From an uncultured Dehalococcoidia bacterium (GTDB lineage: Bacteria > Chloroflexota > Dehalococcoidia > Lucifugimonadales > UBA3495), in contig OX638345.1 in assembly GCA_951813535.1 (NCBI GenBank), forward strand, positions 3,402,608 to 3,466,607: 64,000 bases of DNA, in the 5' to 3' direction. The position numbers were made by a program, and so were the translations under genes. The notes below the pieces were generated by a model. It did not search any database and was not told where the DNA came from. It worked only from the letters and a program-made list of their open reading frames with translations. Shown here one piece after another: positions 9,217-58,926 of the stretch; the stretch's first letter is position 1, and every line of letters begins with the position of its first letter.

Positions 9217-9224
9217 GCTCGGGC
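9217..9224. repeat. Left 8-bp target-site duplication (GCTCGGGC)
   Basis: GCTCGGGC here is identical to 19543-19550, each directly outside a terminal inverted repeat. IS1595-family elements make 8-bp duplications, which matches the transposase inside. Confidence 0.93.
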
Positions 9225-9246
9225 GGGGCCTATATACCCCGCTAGA
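9225..9246 (+). repeat. Left terminal inverted repeat of the IS1595-type element
   Basis: This 22-bp end begins GGGGCC and contains TATATA. It matches the reverse complement of 19521-19542 at 21 of 22 positions; the single difference is C here and G there after TATATA. Confidence 0.92.
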
Positions 9247-10911: not shown

Positions 10912-11943
10912 ATGACGCCCTGGGCATCAATCACCGCAGACGGCGAAATCATCATTGGAGACGAGCCTCGCCCGGAACAGAGGGCGGGCATTCCGCCACC
11001 CCGTAGGCAGACCAAGAAAGAGCAGCAGGACATCATCGGGATCGAGAAGTTCTACAAGGAGATCCCCGACGAGGAGGCCGCAATCGCCTTCGTTGAGGAA
11101 CGCATCTGGGGCGACACGCCGTGGTGTCCTCGCTGTGGGCAGGATGACACCGTGTATCGGGTCAAGAGCGGCAAGCCCCAGAGCCACCGCTGTCGTGGCT
11201 GCCGGCAATATTTCTCCGTGCGTACCGGCACGGTCATGGAGAACACCAACCTGCCCGTTCGCAAATGGTTGCTCGCCATTCACCTGATGCACACCAGCCG
11301 CAAGGGTATCAGCAGCGTCCAATTATCCAAAGCTCTGGACGTTACGCAGACAACCGCTTGGTTCCTGGGGCACCGCATCCGCGAAGCGATGAAGGAAGGC
11401 AACGTGATCATGGGTGAAGTGGTGCAGGTTGATGAGGCGTACATCGGCGGCAAGGAGCGATGGAAGCACTCGGATAAGAAACTGCACGAGCGTTGGCGGG
11501 AGGGTAGGGCACTCGTATTCGGCCTTAAAGAAGACGGAATAGGTGGCAAGGTTAAGGCGTTCCCGATATGGTACGACGGCAATGAGGCCCTCCAGGACGA
11601 GGTCATGCTCAACGTGAACCCGGGTTCGACGGTGTACACCGACAGCCACCCGGCCTATCGCAACCTTTCACGCTACGGCTACAATCATGCGACGGTGAAC
11701 CACCACATCCACCAGTACGTGAACGGGATGGCAACGACGAACGGGATCGAAAGCTTCTGGGCGCTGCTGAAACGCGGGTACGTCGGCGTCTTCCATTACA
11801 TGAGTTGGAAGCACCTGCACCGTTACGTGGATGAGTTCGCCGCCCGCCACAACGCTGGACAAGGTAACGGGTTTCGCACCATCGGCGAGGTTCTGAGACG
11901 TGGGGTGGGCAGACGGCTCACCTACGCACGATTGACCGCATAG
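10912..11943 (+). CDS. IS1595-family transposase
   Basis: This 343-residue transposase is near the usual family length. An N-terminal zinc ribbon has Cys72, Cys75, Cys94 and Cys97 (CPRCG and CRGC). The ISXO2-type catalytic core shows VDEAYIGGKE (Asp174), VYTDSHPAYR (Asp244) and NGIESFWALLKRG (Glu280), with the family's conserved MSWKHLHRYVDEFAARHN near the end. AAGGAGGAAATACC gives a strong ribosome-binding site for ATG 10912. No IS ends lie close around the gene; the matching ends are at 9225 and 19542. The gene eight bases downstream is a likely passenger. Confidence 0.93.
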   Translation: MTPWASITADGEIIIGDEPRPEQRAGIPPPRRQTKKEQQDIIGIEKFYKEIPDEEAAIAFVEERIWGDTPWCPRCGQDDTVYRVKSGKPQSHRCRGCRQYFSVRTGTVMENTNLPVRKWLLAIHLMHTSRKGISSVQLSKALDVTQTTAWFLGHRIREAMKEGNVIMGEVVQVDEAYIGGKERWKHSDKKLHERWREGRALVFGLKEDGIGGKVKAFPIWYDGNEALQDEVMLNVNPGSTVYTDSHPAYRNLSRYGYNHATVNHHIHQYVNGMATTNGIESFWALLKRGYVGVFHYMSWKHLHRYVDEFAARHNAGQGNGFRTIGEVLRRGVGRRLTYARLTA

Positions 11944-11951
11944 GGGGTTGG

Positions 11952-12485
11952 ATGACCGCGGACGACGGTTTTCAAGACGCCATCGGAAACACGCTGGACG
12001 CTCTAGTACGCCCCAGAACGCCAATGCCGGCGTCTGAAATTCTCCGTCTGGCAGACTTGTACTCCGACGCAGGCAATTTGGCCGACGCTGCCCGAGACGT
12101 TGGGTTGGAGGTCGTTTACACCCATCAGTCGGGCGAGATTGTGGACGACATTTCGGCCCATGACCTCATCCCGCCGTTTGACCTGCTGGCCGTCAATATG
12201 CCTGACGGTGATTGGGAGGAAACGTTCGGATTCGTGCTCCGGTTCCTGCGGGTTCGTCGTCCGGTGGCGTTCATACTGGCCGACGTGGAAGGGGATGACA
12301 TGGAAGCAGAATTCTTAGCGTCGGTTCAGGACAAGACCCAGCGCCTAGGCTATCGGGTCTATGGCCAACGCACCTTCATCGTTGGTGTGATCTGGATGGA
12401 GCCGTTCGCATGGCCTTCCGAGCTAACGGCTCAGGGGGTGATGGCGCAAGTAGCAAGGGACGCCCGCGCGAACGCTGGGGGCTGA
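11952..12485 (+). CDS. Degenerate cytosine-C5 methyltransferase-like protein, passenger of the transposase
   Basis: The 177-residue order of motifs recalls a C5-methyltransferase. A Rossmann-like start NLADAARDVGLEVVY comes first, then GEIVDDISAHDLIPPFDLLAVNMPD where the catalytic PCQ loop should be. RRPVAFILADVEGDD stands where ENV should be, and LGYRVYGQRTFIVGV matches the usual GY...FIVG strand. The catalytic Cys and the ENV Glu are absent, and there is no target-recognition domain, so methylation is doubtful. Eight bases separate it from the transposase stop, so co-expression is likely. A role in handling element DNA, or as a decoy fold, is speculative. Confidence 0.5.
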   Translation: MTADDGFQDAIGNTLDALVRPRTPMPASEILRLADLYSDAGNLADAARDVGLEVVYTHQSGEIVDDISAHDLIPPFDLLAVNMPDGDWEETFGFVLRFLRVRRPVAFILADVEGDDMEAEFLASVQDKTQRLGYRVYGQRTFIVGVIWMEPFAWPSELTAQGVMAQVARDARANAGG

Positions 12486-12639: not shown

Positions 12640-13491
12640 ATGCCGCCAATAACCTTCCGATTTGTTGCGTTTGAGAGTGACCTGTTGCATCCGGCAAGCC
12701 CGTTGCCCGATGATCCGATCGACGGAGAGAAGATCGGATCACCGTCACGTGTCCTCGTCTTCGAGCAAGGGGAACGTAATGTCCCCGTGGTACGCCTCAC
12801 GAAACGGTCGCCGCCCGAGGTCGAGGAAATCCGCCCGCTCCTTGAAACGAGGGTATACACCTCTCCCGACCTGTCCCACGATGCTTTTGGTGTGTTCAAC
12901 GTCATCCATGATGACGTAGATCATTTTGACGCCTATCCCATATCGACTGGCGACGCCATGGACGGGGACATGAACGAAATGGTTCGCCAGTGGTATGCTA
13001 AAGCCATCAGGTTTGTTGCCTATGAACTGAACAACGAACGGGGGCTCGTCTATGCCACGACCACCGAAAATGTCCTGAAGGAAATGTTTAGGCGGCACAG
13101 GGCAGCGAACGGCGACGGTGCCGTACTCAGGCGTCGCGTGGTCGATATCCGTGCATTGGAAGGTACGTTGCGATCCCAAATGGGGGCGGAGGCGAACAGA
13201 TACAAATTCAAGAACGTGCGATCCGACACAGTAATTACGGGAATGATGGCCGATGGCCAGCAACTCAACGATAACGACGAGGTGCAGGGTATCAAGGATA
13301 GGGCGGAGAGAATAGGGGAGATCAGGTTCGATTATCAGCACGAGAACAACGTGCTTCGGATCAGCGTCAACGAAAGCGGGGTAGTTGGGTTTTCCAGCGA
13401 CCCGGGCACCCAACCAGCGTTGGATTTGCTACACCGGTTGGATGGCTATATAGCGGCCCATTCTGAACTAACCGTCGTCACGGTGCGCTAG
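12640..13491 (+). CDS. Unknown protein, 283 residues
   Basis: ATG 12640 is preferred to the GTG at 12628 because GTGGAG sits 8 bases upstream. The protein is soluble and of mixed charge. Notable segments are DAFGVFNVIHDDVDHFDAYPIS, broken by charged loops, EMVRQWYAKAIRFVAYEL and IGEIRFDYQHENNVLRISVN. No family was recognised. Its end overlaps the end of the opposing 2TM gene by 24 bp, so the two are convergent. A paired system is possible but unproven. Confidence 0.6.
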   Translation: MPPITFRFVAFESDLLHPASPLPDDPIDGEKIGSPSRVLVFEQGERNVPVVRLTKRSPPEVEEIRPLLETRVYTSPDLSHDAFGVFNVIHDDVDHFDAYPISTGDAMDGDMNEMVRQWYAKAIRFVAYELNNERGLVYATTTENVLKEMFRRHRAANGDGAVLRRRVVDIRALEGTLRSQMGAEANRYKFKNVRSDTVITGMMADGQQLNDNDEVQGIKDRAERIGEIRFDYQHENNVLRISVNESGVVGFSSDPGTQPALDLLHRLDGYIAAHSELTVVTVR

Positions 13492-14352
13492 AGCCGGGCT
13501 GGACAGATATGATCGTACAGAATTCGCTAACGCGTCCGGAGCATTGGCAGCAATCCTGAGGCCATTTTCCTGGATGGCTACGCTGACCGCACCTTCGGCG
13601 AACTTGTCGGTAAGATGTAGTTGGAAGCTGCTTACTTCGGCGCTGGGCACGTCTCGAAGGTAAAACCGGAGGAATGGGTTTTCCCCTTGTGTAGTTATCC
13701 TCACCCAAAAGTTTTGCCCTTCGTGTCCCGCCTGCAATTCTGCGGTCAAGCGAGTGATGAACGGGCAAATTTCTTTGTCGAGTGCCGCTTTGACTTGCTT
13801 TGCTTTTCCTCCGTATCCCCACAAAAAGAATTCGACTACCCGGCCGGCGTCATCATCCTCTTCCCAACCAAGTAAACATTCGCCGTCCTCTGCTGGGACA
13901 TCTATCCTGATCGTTTGAGATCGGTTAGCCTTGATCACCATCCGATTGGTCGGGCCGGCCTGTGGCATCGCGTTGGTATAAATCTTCTTGGTTGCTACCC
14001 ATCCAAGGTCCAACAATTCCTGCTCTTTCAAAGACGAACCAGACTTGATCGCACCGCCCGCCTCGATTTCGTAGGTGGGGCCACTGACAAGGTAACGGAG
14101 TTCGTACAGGAGAATCCTAACGGCGGGGATCCTAAAAACCGCCATGATGGCTGTCCAAGCGATCGATGCTATTGCTGACAGGATGATGCGCGACGCAGGG
14201 GTGCCGTCGTTGACGATCCATCCGATAAGAATGATGGTCCCAAACAGCAACAGCCCCGAACCTAGGGCGAGTGCAACATCCGGCGATAGGAGTGTTTTCA
14301 CGGTGAATACAGGCGCTCCGTGCTGGTGTACGGCATGGGCCTCGGGTGCCAT
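13468..14352 (-). CDS. Two-TM protein with a large soluble domain
   Basis: The protein has 294 residues. Two membrane helices lie near the N-terminus (ALALGSGLLLFGTIILIGWI and IILSAIASIAWTAIMAVF). About 200 soluble residues follow, including QTIRIDVPAEDGECLLGWEE and GQNFWVRITTQGENPFLRFY. No catalytic motif was recognised. The layout (membrane anchor plus sensor-like domain) recurs among defence effectors, which is only a resemblance. It converges on the gene at 12640, and upstream of its start lies the non-coding, RNA-like region. Confidence 0.6.
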   Translation of the reverse strand: MAPEAHAVHQHGAPVFTVKTLLSPDVALALGSGLLLFGTIILIGWIVNDGTPASRIILSAIASIAWTAIMAVFRIPAVRILLYELRYLVSGPTYEIEAGGAIKSGSSLKEQELLDLGWVATKKIYTNAMPQAGPTNRMVIKANRSQTIRIDVPAEDGECLLGWEEDDDAGRVVEFFLWGYGGKAKQVKAALDKEICPFITRLTAELQAGHEGQNFWVRITTQGENPFLRFYLRDVPSAEVSSFQLHLTDKFAEGAVSVAIQENGLRIAANAPDALANSVRSYLSSPALAHRDDG

Positions 14353-14653
14353 CGTACACCAGCACGGCTGCCGTCGCTACCAGTATAAATCCGCACGGAT
14401 GTGCTTACAAGGTATCCCACCCGTCCCCTTACTATTCCTCGCGTTCACTTCTCCTCGCGCTTTCTTGCCCGTTTTGGGCTAATACGCGATCAATTGAGCT
14501 TTGCGCTCCGCCCGCCTCGCGTGCACCTTTCCGATCTCCCTGCCCTCCAGATACGATCTCGGAGTTCGGGATAGCTACGGCGTCCGCAATTTATCGCACT
14601 CTGGAATTTAGGACGAACCCCTGATAATTGACACCCCGGCGTTACCGTGATTT
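14353..14653. other. Non-coding stretch before the RNA candidate
   Basis: About 300 bp lack any credible coding frame. This probably holds the leftward promoter for the 2TM gene and a rightward promoter for the structured RNA. No clear -35/-10 pair could be chosen. Confidence 0.4.
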
Positions 14654-14788
14654 GATGGTCGCGCTACTGCCGAGGGTCTTGGGGCACCCGCCCCACCCGA
14701 CGTTTTTTGAGGTTTCCGCTTGGGATGGCTTTATGCCTCCCTTGCGAACCTCACATCGGGGACCCGGCGGCAGTAGCATGACGCCATC
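14654..14788 (+). ncRNA. Candidate multibranched structured RNA
   Basis: Nested complementary segments define a compact fold. P1 pairs GATGG (14654-14658) with CCATC (14784-14788), continuing with CTACTGCCG (14664-14672) against CGGCAGTAG (14768-14776). P2 pairs GGGTC (14774 is outside; the 5' strand is 14674-14678) with GACCC (14761-14765). P3 is a hairpin GGGGC-ACCC-GCCCC (14681-14694). P4 pairs CCCGA (14696-14700) with TCGGG (14756-14760). P5 pairs GAGGTT...CGC (14709-14719) with GCGAACCTC (14744-14752). It is capped by GGGA.GGC (14722-14729) against GCCTCCC (14735-14741). A U6 run (14703-14708) is left unpaired. No known class was recognised. Fold and strand are inferred by hand. Confidence 0.6.
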
Positions 14789-14887
14789 CTTTTGGCCGCA
14801 AGGGGGGTTCCAGATGCGCCTAATTCATGCGCTCCAAACTGCTGGCAACTTCTACGGGGAGATTGTGCCAATCCATATCTGAACATT

Positions 14888-15086
14888 GACGGCCCCCTCT
14901 CCTAGCACGAGAAGGGGCCGTCTGCCTGGGCATCCGTACCGGGACGCCCAGAGGCCCGAAACAGGCCGCGCGAGATTATATCGGCGGTTGCCCTTTGGTT
15001 CAAACCGGTATGGGTGCGAAATTCGCACCGAAAGCCGGCCCGTCCGCCGAACACGGACGGCAGGAACCACGAGGCAGCCGTTTTTT
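14888..15086 (+). ncRNA. Hairpin-rich leader ahead of the HNH gene
   Basis: Successive hairpins fill this stretch. GACGGCCCC/GGGGCCGTC (14888-14922) has nine perfect pairs, and CTGGGC/GCCCAG spans 14926-14951. GGCC/GGCC spans 14953-14967, GGTGCG/CGCACC spans 15013-15029, and CCGTCCG/CGGACGG (15040-15060) has a 7-nt loop. A U6 run at 15081-15086 follows ACGGC...GCCGT, which overlaps the previous hairpin, so the two are mutually exclusive as in an attenuator. The HNH start codon lies 38 bases further on. It may be a leader or terminator region, or the 3' part of the RNA that begins at 14654. Confidence 0.5.
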
Positions 15087-15124
15087 CATGTCCGGTTGCC
15101 CTGGGATAAATGGAGGCAACCAAT

Positions 15125-15334
15125 ATGCCAATCTCGGCCAAACGTAAGAAGGAACTGTATAACGAACAGAACGGGCGATGCGCTGTTCATGGCGGACCTG
15201 CACCCATCGGCAAAATGCAAGTTGACCGCATCATACCCGGCGCACACGGGGGTCGATATGAGCCTGGCAACGTGCAACTGCTTTGCGGCCCATGCAATCA
15301 GAGGAAGGGCGCACGATTGTGGCCGCGAGGATGA
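15125..15334 (+). CDS. Small HNH endonuclease
   Basis: The protein is 69 residues, the size of a stand-alone phage-type HNH domain. The fold is visible as CAVHGGPAP, MQVDRIIPGAHGGRYEPGN and VQLLCGPCNQRKGAR. The central His lies in AHGG and is followed by the conserved Asn and a second CxxC. TGGAGG at 15111-15116 supports ATG 15125. HNH nucleases next to structured RNAs occur in group I introns and HEARO/IscB elements, but this protein has no RuvC domain and is far shorter than IscB. It might nick target DNA during element spread, which is inference. Confidence 0.8.
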   Translation: MPISAKRKKELYNEQNGRCAVHGGPAPIGKMQVDRIIPGAHGGRYEPGNVQLLCGPCNQRKGARLWPRG

Positions 15335-15385
15335 TCCCGAGTAGTTCCCGCAACGCACAGACACAGGGGACGGGGGATCGCCAAT

Positions 15386-15976
15386 ATGTCAGCTTTGAGA
15401 ACTACGCTGGGTCTGTTATTGGCCGCTTACCTCGCGCTGGCGGTATGGAGGGTGGTTCGGTTCCCCAAACCGCCGCCATCATGGTTCCCTGAACCGATAT
15501 GGCGCGTCACCGACCCGCTGATGACCTTGAGCGAACGGTGGCCTTGGGTGGCTTTGGGCGTGGCCGTTGCCATGGCCTTGTTGGCATTGGTTCTATTGAT
15601 GTCTCGCGCTGATTGGGATCGAATTCTTACCGGTGCCGGTGGGAGCGCGTACGCGTTGTATATCGTTAATGCGGTCATGTTGGTCATTAGTTGGGCTTGG
15701 CGGGCCGACGGCGGCTTGTCCGGACCGATAGCTTGGGCGGTGTCCTGGGTTGGTATTCCACCCGTTGCTCCCGAGGCGTGGCCTTTGTGGGTGGTGGTTG
15801 TCGTCGCCACCATTGCTGGATTGTTGGTAGTGGTGCTCCCGGTCGCGATTGTGGTCGCTGTAGCGATTTCGATCCGCGCGACGGTGCAAACACTCCGGCG
15901 ACGCCCGGAGGGACTGGATCAATCGTCGACGGACCAACTACCGGCTCAGTATTGGCGAGGTCGCCGCATCCAGTAG
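15386..15976 (+). CDS. Multi-TM membrane protein of unknown function
   Basis: This 196-residue protein has about four to five predicted helices, including TLGLLLAAYLALAVW, VALGVAVAMALLALVLLM, AYALYIVNAVMLVISWAW and WPLWVVVVVATIAGLLVVVL continuing into the next hydrophobic stretch. The cytoplasmic tail is Arg-rich. No family was recognised. It starts a rightward run of small genes (15.4-16.7 kb) with short gaps. Confidence 0.6.
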   Translation: MSALRTTLGLLLAAYLALAVWRVVRFPKPPPSWFPEPIWRVTDPLMTLSERWPWVALGVAVAMALLALVLLMSRADWDRILTGAGGSAYALYIVNAVMLVISWAWRADGGLSGPIAWAVSWVGIPPVAPEAWPLWVVVVVATIAGLLVVVLPVAIVVAVAISIRATVQTLRRRPEGLDQSSTDQLPAQYWRGRRIQ

Positions 15977-19520: not shown

Positions 19521-19542
19521 TCTAGCGGGCTATATAGGCCCC
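19521..19542 (-). repeat. Right terminal inverted repeat of the IS1595-type element
   Basis: The reverse complement begins GGGGCCTATATA and matches 9225-9246 at 21 of 22 positions. Its inner part supplies the stop codon (TAG) that ends the truncated host frame at 19522. Confidence 0.92.
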
Positions 19543-22500
19543 GCTCGGGCCGGGTTCGCCCGGATCAGGGAACCTGCGGCGCAATTCGCCGAACCGGATC
19601 GAGGCCGGGTGCGATAGACGAGATTGATCAACAGTTCTGAGGAGTTCAAACTGCGTTGATCCTCGGTACCGAACCCCTTCCGGCATCATCTCGAACGGAG
19701 TGTAATGGTGGAGTATCGCCTGCTCCAGAGTGGCCAGCCTTGCGTCCGAACAGTGAGGTGTCACGGCTTGGATCAGCTTGGCGATCGCCCATCTGGCCCG
19801 GCTGGGATAACGGCCGCCAAATCTAGTGAGGGCATCGGCGACGTAATCCGCTGCTTCATCAGCAAACGCTTCTCCATTTGCTTGATACCCTCGGGCAAGC
19901 AAGAAATGGATGGTCTCGAAACCGGACGCCTGAAACTGTCCTGCGAGCTGCCTGAATGCATCGGGATCGTTTTTTGCCAGCCAACGTATAGATGACTCCA
20001 TGGACAGCAAAAATATGTCGCCGAAGCCGTGCCCATTGGCGTAGTACTCTGGATGCCAGACCGGGTCGCGCCAAGGCGGATCTTTACTCTGGTCTGCGCT
20101 GTTCTGGATGACGTTGAAAACGACAGGCAACAACAGATTGATAAACGTACGCGGTGCTCCGTTTGAGGCCTGTTGCACACCAAGTGCGTCGCTGCTGGAT
20201 GGACCTGTCATCATGTCGAACGGATTCGTGCCGCCGCCCGCCAGGGTTCTGGCCAACAAACGGTCGCAGCAGGCGACGATGAGTTCGCAGGCCCACCGCG
20301 CGTTCTTGTCAGCCAGCGTGCGTGTGGCATGCCAAAGTCCTGAGGAACCGTCTCGATCTATGAGAGTGTCATCGGCTGCACCGGTATTGACCAACGCCAG
20401 GCAGAGGTCAAATAATTGCCGGCTCGTCTCGAGATCCGCAAACAACATCGTCGACAAAAGGTGCTGGTTCCATGACGCCGAGCGCCCCAGAAAGGGAGCG
20501 AGTAATTGCGCCACTCGGTCGGGGCAACTACGCAGGGCACCCAGCATCAGCCACATCGACCGATTGGCTAAAGTGTCTTCGCTTGCGTTCAACCAGCGAT
20601 CCAATACGCCGATGGTGTCCAGCAGGTCGAACCAGGGTGCAGAACCATGAATCGAACGCACCACGTGATCGGACAACTCCGACGCCAACGAAGGTTCGAG
20701 AAGGCGCCATTCTTCCTCGGTTGGGTCGTCCAGGGCTCCCATCAGCGATATCACGATGGCCTTGAGGTGGGGCCGAATGCCACCGCCGTTGAGAATGGCA
20801 TCGATGTCGCGCAGAACATCTCCAGGAGCCCCGTCTCGGCGGTGCAAAAGGACCTGTCTGACTTGGGAACGCACGAAGAGGCTCTGCTCGCGAGAGAGAA
20901 TGTAGGCCGCTAGATTTTCTCCGGTCGCCTCCATACGCCGGGCGAAAGCGTAGTCCAGGAAGCTCTCGTGGAAGAAGGAAACCCGCGACCCGTCGCGCAC
21001 CAGGATGTTCTCCGATGCCAAGACCGCCATGGCGTCCGCGTGGTCATCCAGCAGGGATTCCGGAACGAAGAGCAACTCACGGTCGGTCATCTGATTGACC
21101 ACCAGGTCGACCACTTCGCGCATTTGACCGGGGGACACTCCGCGGGATTGGAGCGTCTGCTGTTTGTGACGCCAGAACGCGTCGTACAGGTCTTTGGTGG
21201 TCTGCAAAACACTGGTATCAACCGAGCCGCCTTTGGCCACCTCTGCTAGAAGGTGCATATGCAAGGGGAGCGAGAGGAGGTCGATCTGTTTGGCACTGAA
21301 CTGGTCCGGATCAAAACCCAAGCGAACCAACAGGGAACGCACAGTCTCAGCGTCGAACGATTCAACCTGAAATTCCTGGGCGATCCCGTTCTCACCGACC
21401 AGATCTCGGAGCCTGATATCGTTTTCCACATCGAACTTGCGGCAGGCGCTGAGCACCCTCATGTTGGGATGTTGGCGAGCTTCCTCCAGCATTGCGCCGA
21501 TGCAGTCGAAAAACTGGGGGTTTCTCCCCGACGCCATGCTGACGGCGTCGAGCTGGTCGATTACCAACAGACAACCCTGCCCCTGTGCCACCGCTGCAAG
21601 GGTTCGCACCGGGGACGCTGGTAGTCCCATATGTTTGCCCAACGCTTCTGGCCGCTCGGCCGGCTCCAATCGGTCGACCCGTAAGGCTAGCATAGGCAGT
21701 TGCATGATCTGCGCGTCATCCAAAACCTGGGCGATGACGGACGTCTTCCCGACTCCTGCTGTACCGGTGACCAGCGCGGCCTTGCGCGTATGTTCATCAT
21801 TAAAATAACCCACCAATTGCCGTGTCTCGTGTCGGAGAATGCTATTCCCGCCGATGCCCTGAGACTGTATGCCCGCCCGGTAGGTCAGGTTCAGTTCGGC
21901 AATCGCGTTGGCCACCTGATCGTCATCGGCCCAAGTCTGCCGGCGGAAGCCCCGCTGACGAAGGTGCTGCCAGATGTCTTCCGCCGTCAACGTTTGATGG
22001 ATCTGGTTCAGCACGAATTGAGCCAGGACGTCTGCCGCGTTGGCGGGGTCGCCGTCCAATAGCATACCCAGCTTGGCGTGAGCCAGTTCTCCAAGTTCCC
22101 TCTCACCGATGGTCACAACTTGGACCCGCTTGAGGCGCGCGTATGATTCCTCATTGCTGGCGGACCCCCACCGTGCGTGCAGGTCATTGAAATTCTTAGA
22201 CCATTCATCAGATGCCAAAAAACCGTTCTTGAACTCCTCCCACGATGGCGCAGCTCGAGCTCGTGCAGTGAGCTCGTCAAGGGGATGGGCGGCATGCGTA
22301 GATACGAACACGGTTTCCGCAGTCTGGTCGTTCAGCTTCCGGTAGAAGTGCTCGAGGACTTCCTCTACCTGCAATGCCCTCAAGGACCAGTATCCGCGAC
22401 CGGTCCGCTGGCGCTTCACCTGGTGATATGCAGTCCCCGACGGCTGTGTGACGGTAAACTCCACCCCTTGTCCATCGTCACCGACGGGTTCGAGAGAAAT

Positions 22501-54175: not shown

Positions 54176-55801
54176 TCAAGCCACCCCGCGTGTTTCACCA
54201 CGCGCGACCGCCTGAACCGGATTGGGTCGGCGTCTCCGCTTTCCCAGCCGGTGCTGCGCTGCAAGCGCCGGTCTCAGCTGCCCCGAGATCGCGCCCCAGT
54301 ACGTCCACACGTGCTTCACCCGCGTCCTGACGGGTACGGTGAAGGCGACGTGGACGCCATCGCCGACGGGATAAGCCCATCGACGTGGGATGCGCTCCGA
54401 ACAGCCGAGCAAACGTCGGGCCAGCACCAAAGCCGCTGCCTGGTGGACGCTGAGCCCGTAACGTTCCATGAACTTCACCCGGCCGATCACTGAACTGAAC
54501 GCCGGGTTGACCTGATGTACTTCCACTCCTTCGCGGTAGCCACGGGACAGGAAGTACGCTTTGATCTTCCCGTAGCTGAAACTCGACAGCATCCGGCTGT
54601 ATTTGCGAGACTCACCTTCGAGAGCAGCCTTCTTCCGGCAGAAGTCCAGCTTCTCGATGACGATGGGCTTGCCAACCTCATGGGCGTGCGCCACTACTGA
54701 GGCCACGGCATCGCCGATGATAGCCTCAGCCTGATGCTGGGACTTCCCGTAGGTCACCAGCGGCACGCTGAACGCGTTGACGTAGTTGCCGCTGGCATCA
54801 GTCTCACAGACCGCCAGGTGGTCGGCGTTCAGGTCCACGCCGATGGCGCCACGCCGTTGGTCCGTTACCACCGGCACTTCCATCATGTCGGTGGTGGCGA
54901 ACACCCGCCAGCCTTTCCGGTCCCGCTTGAACCGGTAGCTGATGGCCTGACCCAGTTCGGTCTCGCGCACTGCCTGCTCACCTTGCTCACGCCGGTGCCG
55001 AGCGTACGCGGCGTTGCTGCCCAACGCGGCCAGCATCTGCTCGTGACCGTGGTTGAAGCGCACGCCCTCGATGGTTAGGTACTTGCCATGCTGTACCGCC
55101 AGGCAGTCCGGCATCCTGAGCCGCAGGGTCAGCGTCCCGTCATCAGCCACGGTGGCCACGCAGAGCTGACACCCCGCCGTCTCGTCGCGGCTGCCCAGCA
55201 CGAAGAATTCGTCGCTGCGCGCCTCACGCCAGTCTTTGAGCCATTCCTCATGGCTGGTGTAGCCGTTGTCCTCCAGGTGCTGCTGCTTCCGCCACAGCCG
55301 CTTGGAACCGAAGCACAGCCGCACCCGCTCCTCCGCAACGTCGGCTTCTAACACCGCCACCCTATGCCGCAGGTTGGCCAGCCGCCTCCGTTTCTGGTGG
55401 ACCTGTTCGAGCCGGCCGCGTTCGGCGGCATCGGCGATCTGCCGCTCTGCCCGAGCCAGCCGCCGGCCCAGGCTGTCCAGCTGCAGATTCTGCTGCTCCC
55501 TCACCGACGCCACCTTCCCTTCCAGCGACACCCGCACCCCGTTGAACATCCGCGCCGGTATCCCGTACCGTTGCAGGTACTCGCTCTTCAACGCCGTCGC
55601 CGACCGGCCTGCCGCCACCTCAGCGAACAGTTGCCGCTCCACCCTGCCGTACAGCGCGGCGTAGGCCGATAACGCCGCGTCGCCGGCCTGACGGTCAACA
55701 CCGGAGTACTCGCGCACCCGCGTCTGATAGGTCGCGGTCAGCCGCCTCCCACCGGAGCTACTTTGAGCAGATGACCGGACGTTCCTTTTGCAGAGTGCCA
55801 T
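54176..55801 (-). CDS. TnpB-like (OrfB) protein with non-canonical third RuvC motif
   Basis: The 541 residues have a helical N-terminal half with a coiled-coil (about 100-165), then a RuvC-like core: AIGVDLNADHLAVCETDASG (Asp323) and PIVIEKLDF (Glu383). Where TnpB has a zinc finger and a Asp-x-Asn motif, this protein reads VNPAFSSVIGRVKFMERYGL and SVHQAAALVLARR, with His453 in the Asp position and no CxxC. It is either a family with a different third residue or a nuclease-dead TnpB relative. No tnpA is nearby. Active TnpB is an RNA-guided DNA nuclease that retains IS605 elements; inactive relatives can repress genes. Confidence 0.8.
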   Translation of the reverse strand: MALCKRNVRSSAQSSSGGRRLTATYQTRVREYSGVDRQAGDAALSAYAALYGRVERQLFAEVAAGRSATALKSEYLQRYGIPARMFNGVRVSLEGKVASVREQQNLQLDSLGRRLARAERQIADAAERGRLEQVHQKRRRLANLRHRVAVLEADVAEERVRLCFGSKRLWRKQQHLEDNGYTSHEEWLKDWREARSDEFFVLGSRDETAGCQLCVATVADDGTLTLRLRMPDCLAVQHGKYLTIEGVRFNHGHEQMLAALGSNAAYARHRREQGEQAVRETELGQAISYRFKRDRKGWRVFATTDMMEVPVVTDQRRGAIGVDLNADHLAVCETDASGNYVNAFSVPLVTYGKSQHQAEAIIGDAVASVVAHAHEVGKPIVIEKLDFCRKKAALEGESRKYSRMLSSFSYGKIKAYFLSRGYREGVEVHQVNPAFSSVIGRVKFMERYGLSVHQAAALVLARRLLGCSERIPRRWAYPVGDGVHVAFTVPVRTRVKHVWTYWGAISGQLRPALAAQHRLGKRRRRPNPVQAVARGETRGVA

Positions 55802-56329: not shown

Positions 56330-56998
56330 TTGCGGCTACTCTGCCGTTTCGCATGTTATCGCCTTTGTCCCAGTTGGGAAACGTTGCTGGCGCGGTCTGT
56401 CTGACGACGCTCGAATAAGAGCAGCGAAAATTCTTCTGCATCATAGTGCGTCTTGACAACCCGAAGCCTCCCGCCTATCGTCATCCCTGCCACAGTCGAG
56501 GCTCCGGCGCACTGCGCTACCTCAAAATATGCGAGTTATTCCGTTCTGGTAGGCACTCGTGCCTCCTAGCGGAACTCGCATTTGGAGCCGGCGACTGTGG
56601 CAAGAAGCCTATCCAGTGGCCGCTAGGAGGTTCCAAATGCGGATTGACCCGCCGCTGCCGTCGCTTCGGTCGGCAGCCCTTCTCGCCATCCCGCTCGCCC
56701 CGCGCACGACTTCCCCCTGGGTTCAAGATGCGTGCACGGCTTCCGCAATCCCCGCGCGACAGCATCCCCCGCGGCCGGACCCCGCCCCACCGGCGCGGTC
56801 GCCGCAGTCCAGCGGGCGCAATGATGCGACCCCTGATGGATGGACGCCAGATCAGGCGTCTTCCCGTCGCCCTCGGTGGCAGGCCCGTTTCATGATTCCG
56901 AAACGGGAGCGGTCGACACGCGCCGTTTCCATCCGCTGCAGCCGGCCGGAACATTCATCCACCTCAGCAGTCGGCTTTCGGCTGAAAAGGAGCTGATC
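56330..56998. other. Non-coding stretch with a large inverted repeat
   Basis: About 670 bp without a credible gene. A 60-bp hairpin lies at 56525-56584. The phrase CCTATCCAGTGGCCG occurs here (about 56607) and again at about 57778. Arg/Pro-rich frames in both directions are shadows. Confidence 0.45.
56525..56584. repeat. Long imperfect inverted repeat (hairpin)
   Basis: Left arm (AAATATGCGAGTT, then CCG and AGGCAC) and right arm (GTGCCTCCTAGCGG, AACTCGCATTT) form about 24 pairs with small bulges and almost no loop. CCGCTAGGAGG recurs once more at about 56621. No T-run follows, so it is more like a mobile hairpin or a fold-back element than a terminator. Confidence 0.6.
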
Positions 56999-57811: not shown

Positions 57812-58926
57812 ATGACAACCAACGAAACGCCGGAACAGAGCGACCCACGCCAGAACCGGGACAGCCAGCCGCCCCGCGGCCCGCTAGGAATTCCCACCCG
57901 GTGGCTGATCATCGGCGGAGGCGGCGTCCTTCTGGTCGTCGTCGCCCCCCTGGCGGTGGTTATGTCCGGCGTCATCGGCGGCGGAAACCCCGGCCGGGAT
58001 CTCTGTACGACCTGATTCCCGATGACGCCGACTCGGTCGTGATCATGGACGTGGAGCGGATACTGGCCATAGACGACCTGGCCGACGCGATTTGGGATGA
58101 ACAGGAATGGGAGTCCCTTGAGAGCGACGTGGGTATCGATTCAGAGGACCTTTCCGAAGTGGCGGTCGTGCAACGGGGCGGCGTGCACATCGTCATGATG
58201 GCTGGCGATCTTGACCTTGACCACATGCGCGACGACCTGGAAGACGACGATGCGGAGGAGGATTCCTACCGCGGTTACGAGGTTTGGCGAGACGCCGACA
58301 CCAGCGCTGCCCTGTTCGAAGGGTACATCATCGTTTCCGAGGCGATGGGGCCGGTGGAAAACGTGCTCAAGAACCTGTACAACGGTTCAGGGTCGTTGGG
58401 GAAGGCAGATGACGACAATGAGATGAAGCAGATCCTGGACCAGCTCGGCAGCGGGTTGGCGATGTTTGGCGTCACCGGCGACGTCTGTTCGGTGGAACGC
58501 TGCGAAAGATACGGTTGGGCCATGGCCAACCATGACGAGAGCGCCGGGGAAACCGAGATAAAGATCGCGCTGCTGTTCCGCAACGAGCGCGCCGCGGAAC
58601 GGGCGGCCGACGACTACGACCAGGTGGCCGACTTTCTGGAACGGGAGGGCTTCGACATTGAGGATACCGAGGCCGACGGCAGGTTCGTGATGGGGGTAGC
58701 CATTCGGGACACTGATGACGGCGCTTCGAGGTCGGGAGTTTCACGTGAAAACTGGATCGAGGATTGCGATCGCAACTCCCCCGATCCCGATGCAGACCGG
58801 TACGTTTGCAGCTGCATCTACGACCATCTCCACGAGAATGCGGACCGCGTGCCGGAGTACGATCCGCGCTGGGACATGGGTTTCGCTCCGCCGGACGTGG
58901 TTCGGGCAGGCCTGCAATGCTACTGA
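57812..58926 (+). pseudogene. Membrane-anchored protein (DUF3352-like), frameshifted
   Basis: ATG 57812 (after GGGAGGATGTGACCAG) encodes a Pro-rich start and one TM helix (WLIIGGGGVLLVVVAPLAVV), then stops at 58013-58015. The real continuation lies in another frame from about 58000: LYDLIPDDADSVVIMDVERI, VENVLKNLYNGSGSLGK and VADFLEREGFDIEDTEADGR, to 58926. A one-base deletion near 58005 explains the break; the site does not look like a programmed slippery sequence. The intact protein would be about 371 residues, exported and anchored. Confidence 0.7.

Follow-up and report, generated by a model that had tools for sequence, protein, structure and literature searches.

A structured RNA encoded on the forward strand of the window (the whole 64,000-nt stretch of DNA analysed here, from an uncultured Dehalococcoidia bacterium) represents, with a probability that we put at roughly four in five, an undescribed class of Chloroflexota cis-regulatory 5′ leader RNAs that gate translation. 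Comparison of sequences establishes its structure, its pseudoknot pairings, the geometry of promoter and Shine–Dalgarno sequence (SD), and its association with genes; there are no expression or probing data. The mode of control resembles that of a translational riboswitch or of a protein-responsive leader, but with ligand binding untested we do not call the RNA a riboswitch. The initial annotation of this locus, a structured, multibranched RNA assigned to no known class, is supported, although it missed that the RNA forms a 5′ leader carrying an SD gate, that a second copy is present in the window, and that the outermost pairs it described are promoter DNA.

Fold, boundaries and promoter

The interval 14654–14788 (+) folds at –81 kcal/mol, compared with –48.2 ± 3.6 kcal/mol for dinucleotide shuffles (z = –9.2; 0/200 as low), and the structure first proposed by eye thus passed the shuffled-sequence control. 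The opposite strand can be folded too; the + strand was assigned because promoter, SD and start codon all lie on it. The three-way layout had been read correctly, with its outer stem, GGGGC-ACCC-GCCCC hairpin, long capped arm and loose U run: P1, P2, P3 and the arm P4 make up a three-way-junction body, with the SD in the tail (Table 1). Other details required revision. The U run, given as six residues, is present but not conserved among members, and of the 18-pair outer stem only the inner 10 bp (14663–14672 with 14768–14777) are conserved. Beyond these, pairing in 66 members does not exceed chance once the fourth base is reached, and the outer 8 bp are assigned to promoter DNA because they fall in the –10 region. 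In the alignment with homologues from G006, G012, G008 and G016, conservation begins at about GCTAC (14663) rather than at 14654, and in the same-genus alignment it runs past 14788 to GGTTCC (14811), followed by ATG; the start codon of the first copy is the ATG at 14814, right after the leader. The annotated interval therefore contains a real RNA, but the functional element extends to the SD and ATG (14800–14816).

A TTGACA-like –35 element and a –10 element occur at a fixed distance before P1, with a mean promoter match score of 8.9/12 versus 6.4/12 for shuffled sequences, and the –10 hexamer begins 9–10 nt before model position 1 in 53/65 members. Because of this fixed position directly before P1, the leader probably makes up all of the 5′ UTR, with the reservation that promoters are predicted and the start was not measured; transcription starting at P1 would make the whole 5′ UTR a structured RNA. 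At the other end, the start codon usually falls 0–6 nt past the end of the model. Insofar as predicted promoters allow, the RNA thus meets the expectation that a cis-regulatory leader has its own promoter, with transcription beginning where the structure begins, and is followed immediately by a gene.

Table 1. Features of the leader RNA and its surroundings in the window
Feature	Position	Strand	Basis and remarks
Whole 5′ leader	about 14663–14813	+	promoter before, P1 first, SD and ATG last
Full-length covariance-model match	14660–14811	+	models R1–R3
–35 element, TTGACA	14628–14633	+	sequence; conserved at the same distance in 65 members
–10 element, TTTGAT, spacer 17 nt	14651–14656	+	predicted transcription start about 14662–14664, the first base of P1
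P1 5′ strand (partner 14768–14777, 10 bp)	14663–14672	+	98.8% of cells paired; both-side changes in 10/10 pairs
P1 3′ strand	14768–14777	+	P1 pairing and covariation
P2 5′ strand (partner 14761–14765)	14674–14678	+	82% paired; both-side changes in all 7 modelled pairs
P3 hairpin, GGGGC-ACCC-GCCCC	14681–14694	+	where it occurs, 89% paired; not all members have it, and its sequence varies
P4 arm (basal helix 14709–14714 with 14747–14752)	14709–14752	+	basal helix 95.6% paired; both-side changes in 5/5 pairs
Strand a of arm, GGGATGGC; alternatives, arm hairpin closure or pairing with strand b	14722–14729	+	a·b complementarity, 0/5000 permutations
Strand a′ (anti-SD), GCCTCCCTTGCG	14735–14746	+	12 contiguous pairs with SD strand; 0/10000 permutations, 66 members
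Unpaired conserved GG, P2/P1 junction	14766–14767	+	conservation 86% and 94%
Strand b of tail, GCCATCC (partner strand a)	14783–14789	+	a·b permutation test
Strand b′, CGCAAGGGGGGT, including SD AAGGGGGG at 14800–14807	14797–14808	+	sequence; a′·b′ pairing test
22-codon ORF, MRLIHALQTAGNFYGEIVPIHI, directly after SD	14814–14882	+	sequence
Strong GC hairpin after short ORF, terminator-like, without U run	14888–14922	+	fold
Second leader RNA copy	56486–56634	+	covariance models
Parts of second copy	TTGACA 56453–56458; TATCGT 56476–56481; anti-SD 56561–56572; SD 56624–56630; ATG 56637	+	sequence

Distribution and covariation

At the DNA level, homologues searched for within the family occur only in the same genus (G006, G012, G008 and G016), and a search of the source genome returned only the 14.6-kb copy. 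A covariance model built from these five sequences (R1) gave full-length matches in 11/50 genomes of the family, plus a single match from a different family within the order. Model R2, from 17 members, gave 56 matches in 18/40 relatives when run with sensitive filters, and its matches extend to 35/250 genomes of the order, 7/393 sampled in the class and 2/301 in the phylum; R3, from 67 members, added genomes from another class of Chloroflexota. Besides the second copy in the window, the covariance models revealed a third elsewhere in the same genome, and 12 of the 14 genomes of the source genus carry the RNA, in up to seven copies. The survey, restricted to Chloroflexota, comprises more than 90 full-length members, mostly from one Dehalococcoidia order; assignment to this class is also inferred from other genomes in it, closed and 1.5–1.7 Mb long, which have 21–27 reductive dehalogenase matches each. 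To gauge specificity, R3 was run on 25 unrelated loci and gave one weak match (E 0.03). A pattern scan with the sequence of one copy gave 16 matches in other phyla, which were rejected as chance-like, R3 finding at most this one weak match there, and blastn of 14500–15500 against phage and plasmid collections gave no match.

That the RNA belongs to no recognised class, as the initial annotation had it, held up against Rfam 15: a scan of the window returned tRNA only, permissive thresholds over 14300–15400 gave no match over the RNA, and 20 divergent members gave none at the RNA at E up to 0.5. No description of the RNA was found in the literature; for the Weinberg 2017 survey, this absence rests on Rfam.

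Across 67 sequences, standard pairs fill 89.6% of pair cells, versus 66.6% for shuffled sequences and about 42% with partners slid, and changes on both sides were seen in 40/44 modelled pairs; P1 is paired in 98.8% and the basal arm helix in 95.6% of cells. The 17 members outside training are paired in 86.0% of cells versus 66.0% shuffled (P1 97.8%, arm 94.9%). The alignments were fitted to the covariance model, which favours the model; nonetheless, the slid controls and the untrained members agree. In alignments A8 and A10 the last row is a weak extra match, which was counted in the pair statistics and left out of the Python tests. The five sequences of the window copy and its same-genus homologues are already enough to show compensatory changes in the outer stem. 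The proposed fold thus withstood covariance analysis on homologues, with both-side changes in all ten pairs of P1 and all five of the arm helix, and the conserved, covarying secondary structure to be expected of a cis-regulatory leader RNA is present.

Two divergent leader copies lie 175 bp apart at locus L084 in G006 (1541–1696 on the minus and 1872–2028 on the plus strand), with short or doubtful ORFs behind each. Close upstream of the second copy in the window, a 541-aa ORF on the minus strand (54176–55801) appears TnpB-type by eye. At 57814–58926, a membrane-protein gene is apparently split by a frameshift, and a tail-like TATCCAGTGGCC...GGGAGG precedes its start without a full leader RNA.

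Genes behind the leader

Among 34 ORFs of at least 120 aa behind the leader, 31 carry a strongly hydrophobic stretch within their first 60 residues (13/100 in the background) and 19 have a lipobox (4/100 background ORFs). These calls rest on simple rules, for hydropathy and for sequence patterns, and the background ORFs come from four fetched contexts as well as the window. The Pfam domains encoded downstream are diverse, including RCC1 repeats, TPR, collagen-like, trypsin-like, TM2 and DUF805, and what the genes have in common is location, not pathway. Since lipoproteins and other proteins destined for export or the membrane account for most of their products, the leader RNA probably controls envelope proteins.

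Proposed gating of the SD sequence

The anti-SD strand, which forms the 3′ apical strand of the arm, can pair with the SD strand in 66/66 members, over 9–17 contiguous bp (mean 12.2); the shortest such pairing among out-of-sample members is 7 bp (L111). The two strands change together, as seen for CCTCCCTTGCG with CGCAAGGGGGG in the first copy (14.6 kb), CCTCCTAGCGG with CCGCTAGGAGG in the second (56486–56634) and CCTCCTCACGG with CCGTGAGGAGG in L054. When partners were permuted, the observed total was reached in 0/10000 cases both for the 66 members and for the out-of-sample set. Pairing of the 5′ apical strand of the arm with the tail strand before the SD (a·b) was likewise matched in 0/5000 permutations; closure of the arm itself (a·a′) also gave 0/5000, but is modest and more weakly conserved. 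Cross-control strand pairings were not significant in the permutation test, and a local tail hairpin predicted by RNAalifold (b·b′) was discarded as no better than permuted (2256/5000). Permutation p-values overstate certainty, as related sequences are treated as independent, and effect size together with the cross controls is the better guide. Because a·b plus a′·b′ excludes a·a′, the two conserved forms are mutually exclusive. In sequence, the RNA thus has one of the features required of a translational riboswitch, an expression platform whose alternative pairings cannot coexist and leave the SD either exposed or hidden, the switching itself being inferred.

In the proposed OFF state, b′ (with the SD) would pair with a′ and b with a, generating a pseudoknot that hides the SD; when the RNA is ON, the arm would close on itself (a with a′), leaving the SD strand free. 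Approximate energies, with loop penalties excluded, place the pseudoknot form a median of 13.7 kcal/mol below the SD-open form, and for this reason the default state is most likely OFF, with some signal favouring arm closure; a 12-bp GC-rich SD pairing comes to near –18 kcal/mol. The interconversion of the two states, their assignment as ON and OFF, and the nature and direction of the signal that would shift them are inferred in the absence of expression or probing data. Beyond the SD gate few unpaired bases are conserved, about five of them well: GG next to the 3′ strand of P1 on its 5′ side, and AAG following P1. Conserved letters are concentrated in P1 (GCnACnG / CnGTnGC), GG and AAG, and exceed the needs of pairing.

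Alternative explanations and known systems

Our more specific proposal, which we hold tentatively and short of an even wager, is a new riboswitch-like class that answers a signal with a double strand exchange, trading the arm (a·a′) and the SD pseudoknot (a·b plus a′·b′) for one another, and that serves as a regulon-wide envelope-lipoprotein switch in uncultured Chloroflexota. If the signal were a small molecule, for example a second messenger, the P1–P4 body would be its aptamer and binding would shift the pseudoknot. A junction body with an SD-burying pseudoknot, 1–8 copies per genome and a regulon-like gene set all suit such an orphan riboswitch, as does a surface-protein regulon of the kind typical of c-di-GMP riboswitches. 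However, some five well-conserved unpaired bases, the SD gate apart, are few for a ligand pocket, and no metabolic pathway is common to the downstream genes, such that ligand binding remains possible but somewhat doubtful. The same thin conservation makes protein binding to P1–GG–AAG a serious alternative, if on the unlikely side: an RNA-binding protein would read P1 together with the GG bulge and the AAG that follows the helix, and stabilize one state, as the clustering of conserved letters at these sites beyond pairing needs would suggest. No candidate protein is at hand, and the first transcribed bases within P1 may add constraint.

Gating might also require no specific ligand, in an RNA thermometer or a purely kinetic gate, insofar as SD pairing strength and geometry are conserved while the sequence of the body varies. 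A thermometer would have no need for the conserved three-way body, the P1 sequence or the GG bulge, and the 12-bp SD pairing is strong for one; we consider such a gate improbable. Finally, an IS1595 transposase gene (10912–11943) lies near the first copy, a similar transposase ORF occurs directly upstream in G008 (by eye) and both strands fold, as might be expected if the sequence were mobile DNA (a MITE or transposon end) and not RNA. This can hardly be reconciled with the fixed promoter, SD and ATG, the strand-specific G–U pairs, the SD pseudoknot and the different genes behind most members; nor does a DNA search of the source genome show near-identical copies, the other copies being diverged and in different gene contexts. 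No target-site duplications or common DNA ends were noticed around the copies, although without a systematic search for them. We give it almost no credence.

The leader RNA, as a gated 5′ leader, recalls several described systems. The preQ1, SAM-II and ZTP translational riboswitches bury the SD in pseudoknots, and share with it a 5′ leader, a junction or pseudoknot body, an SD hidden by long-range pairing and a gene right behind; the leader RNA differs in lacking an Rfam match, in pairing its SD over a long 7–17 bp with one strand of the arm, in a body nearly without a conserved unpaired core and in its envelope-protein genes. It would share with c-di-GMP riboswitches (GEMM) the control of surface and exported proteins, but has no Rfam match and another architecture. 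ROSE and fourU thermometers, local hairpins with weak pairs, similarly occlude the SD by pairing, in contrast to the long GC-rich pseudoknot and conserved three-way body found here. With the DUF805 RNA motifs the point in common is that the G012 leader copy precedes a DUF805 gene; however, no Rfam match was found, and other genes lie behind other members. Chloroflexi-1 RNA (RF01698), a structured RNA of the same phylum, is listed in PMC2864571 only from Chloroflexus aggregans and gave no cmscan match at the window locus at gathering or permissive thresholds.

The first copy and its surroundings

Behind the first copy lies only the 22-codon ORF, whose counterparts have 22 codons in G006 and five in G008 and G016; the homologous leader of G012 precedes a frameshifted DUF805 gene, and in a minority of other members, too, the ORF that follows is very short or doubtful. 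No canonical terminator was found behind the short ORF. The first copy, an orphan-leader candidate near the IS1595 transposase, may be a decayed remnant, a working leader that has lost its lipoprotein gene. The 22 codons followed by a hairpin, the five-codon counterparts and the frameshifted gene in the close G012 homologue are consistent with decay, but the RNA is intact and covaries in the subgroup, and the 22-codon length is common to G006; we regard this reading as possible without favouring it.

The HNH ORF downstream was rejected as an RNA-guided nuclease partner (74 aa, with distant relatives in phage contigs, and different genes in other members), as was a HEARO or omega-RNA (IscB/IsrB), given the lack of an Rfam match and the absence of this short ORF behind other members. 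Ahead of the HNH ORF, a second conserved block (14927–15077) carries tandem hairpins GGTTGCC / GGCAACC; it also precedes an unrelated ORF (MRDQFVADV...) in G006, G008 and G016, and resembles another leader or operator. A long near-perfect hairpin at 14319–14366 (CGTGCTGGTGTACG...CGTACACCAGCACG) spans the start of the minus-strand ORF 13468–14352. Relatives of ORF 11952–12485, which adjoins the IS1595 transposase, lie upstream of the RNA homologue in G016 and, in fragmentary form, of that in G006. By eye alone this ORF looks like a degenerate cytosine methyltransferase; it has no Pfam match. Inverted repeats at 9217–9246 and 19521–19550 (30 nt, 90% complementary, 10.3 kb apart) flank the RNA region and are possible element ends.

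Implications

Overall, the leader RNA is a well-supported, uncatalogued class with a testable gating geometry, from a largely uncultured lineage. It marks a regulon of exported proteins otherwise without known control, and the common signal that may lie behind many unrelated envelope genes is a directly testable question.
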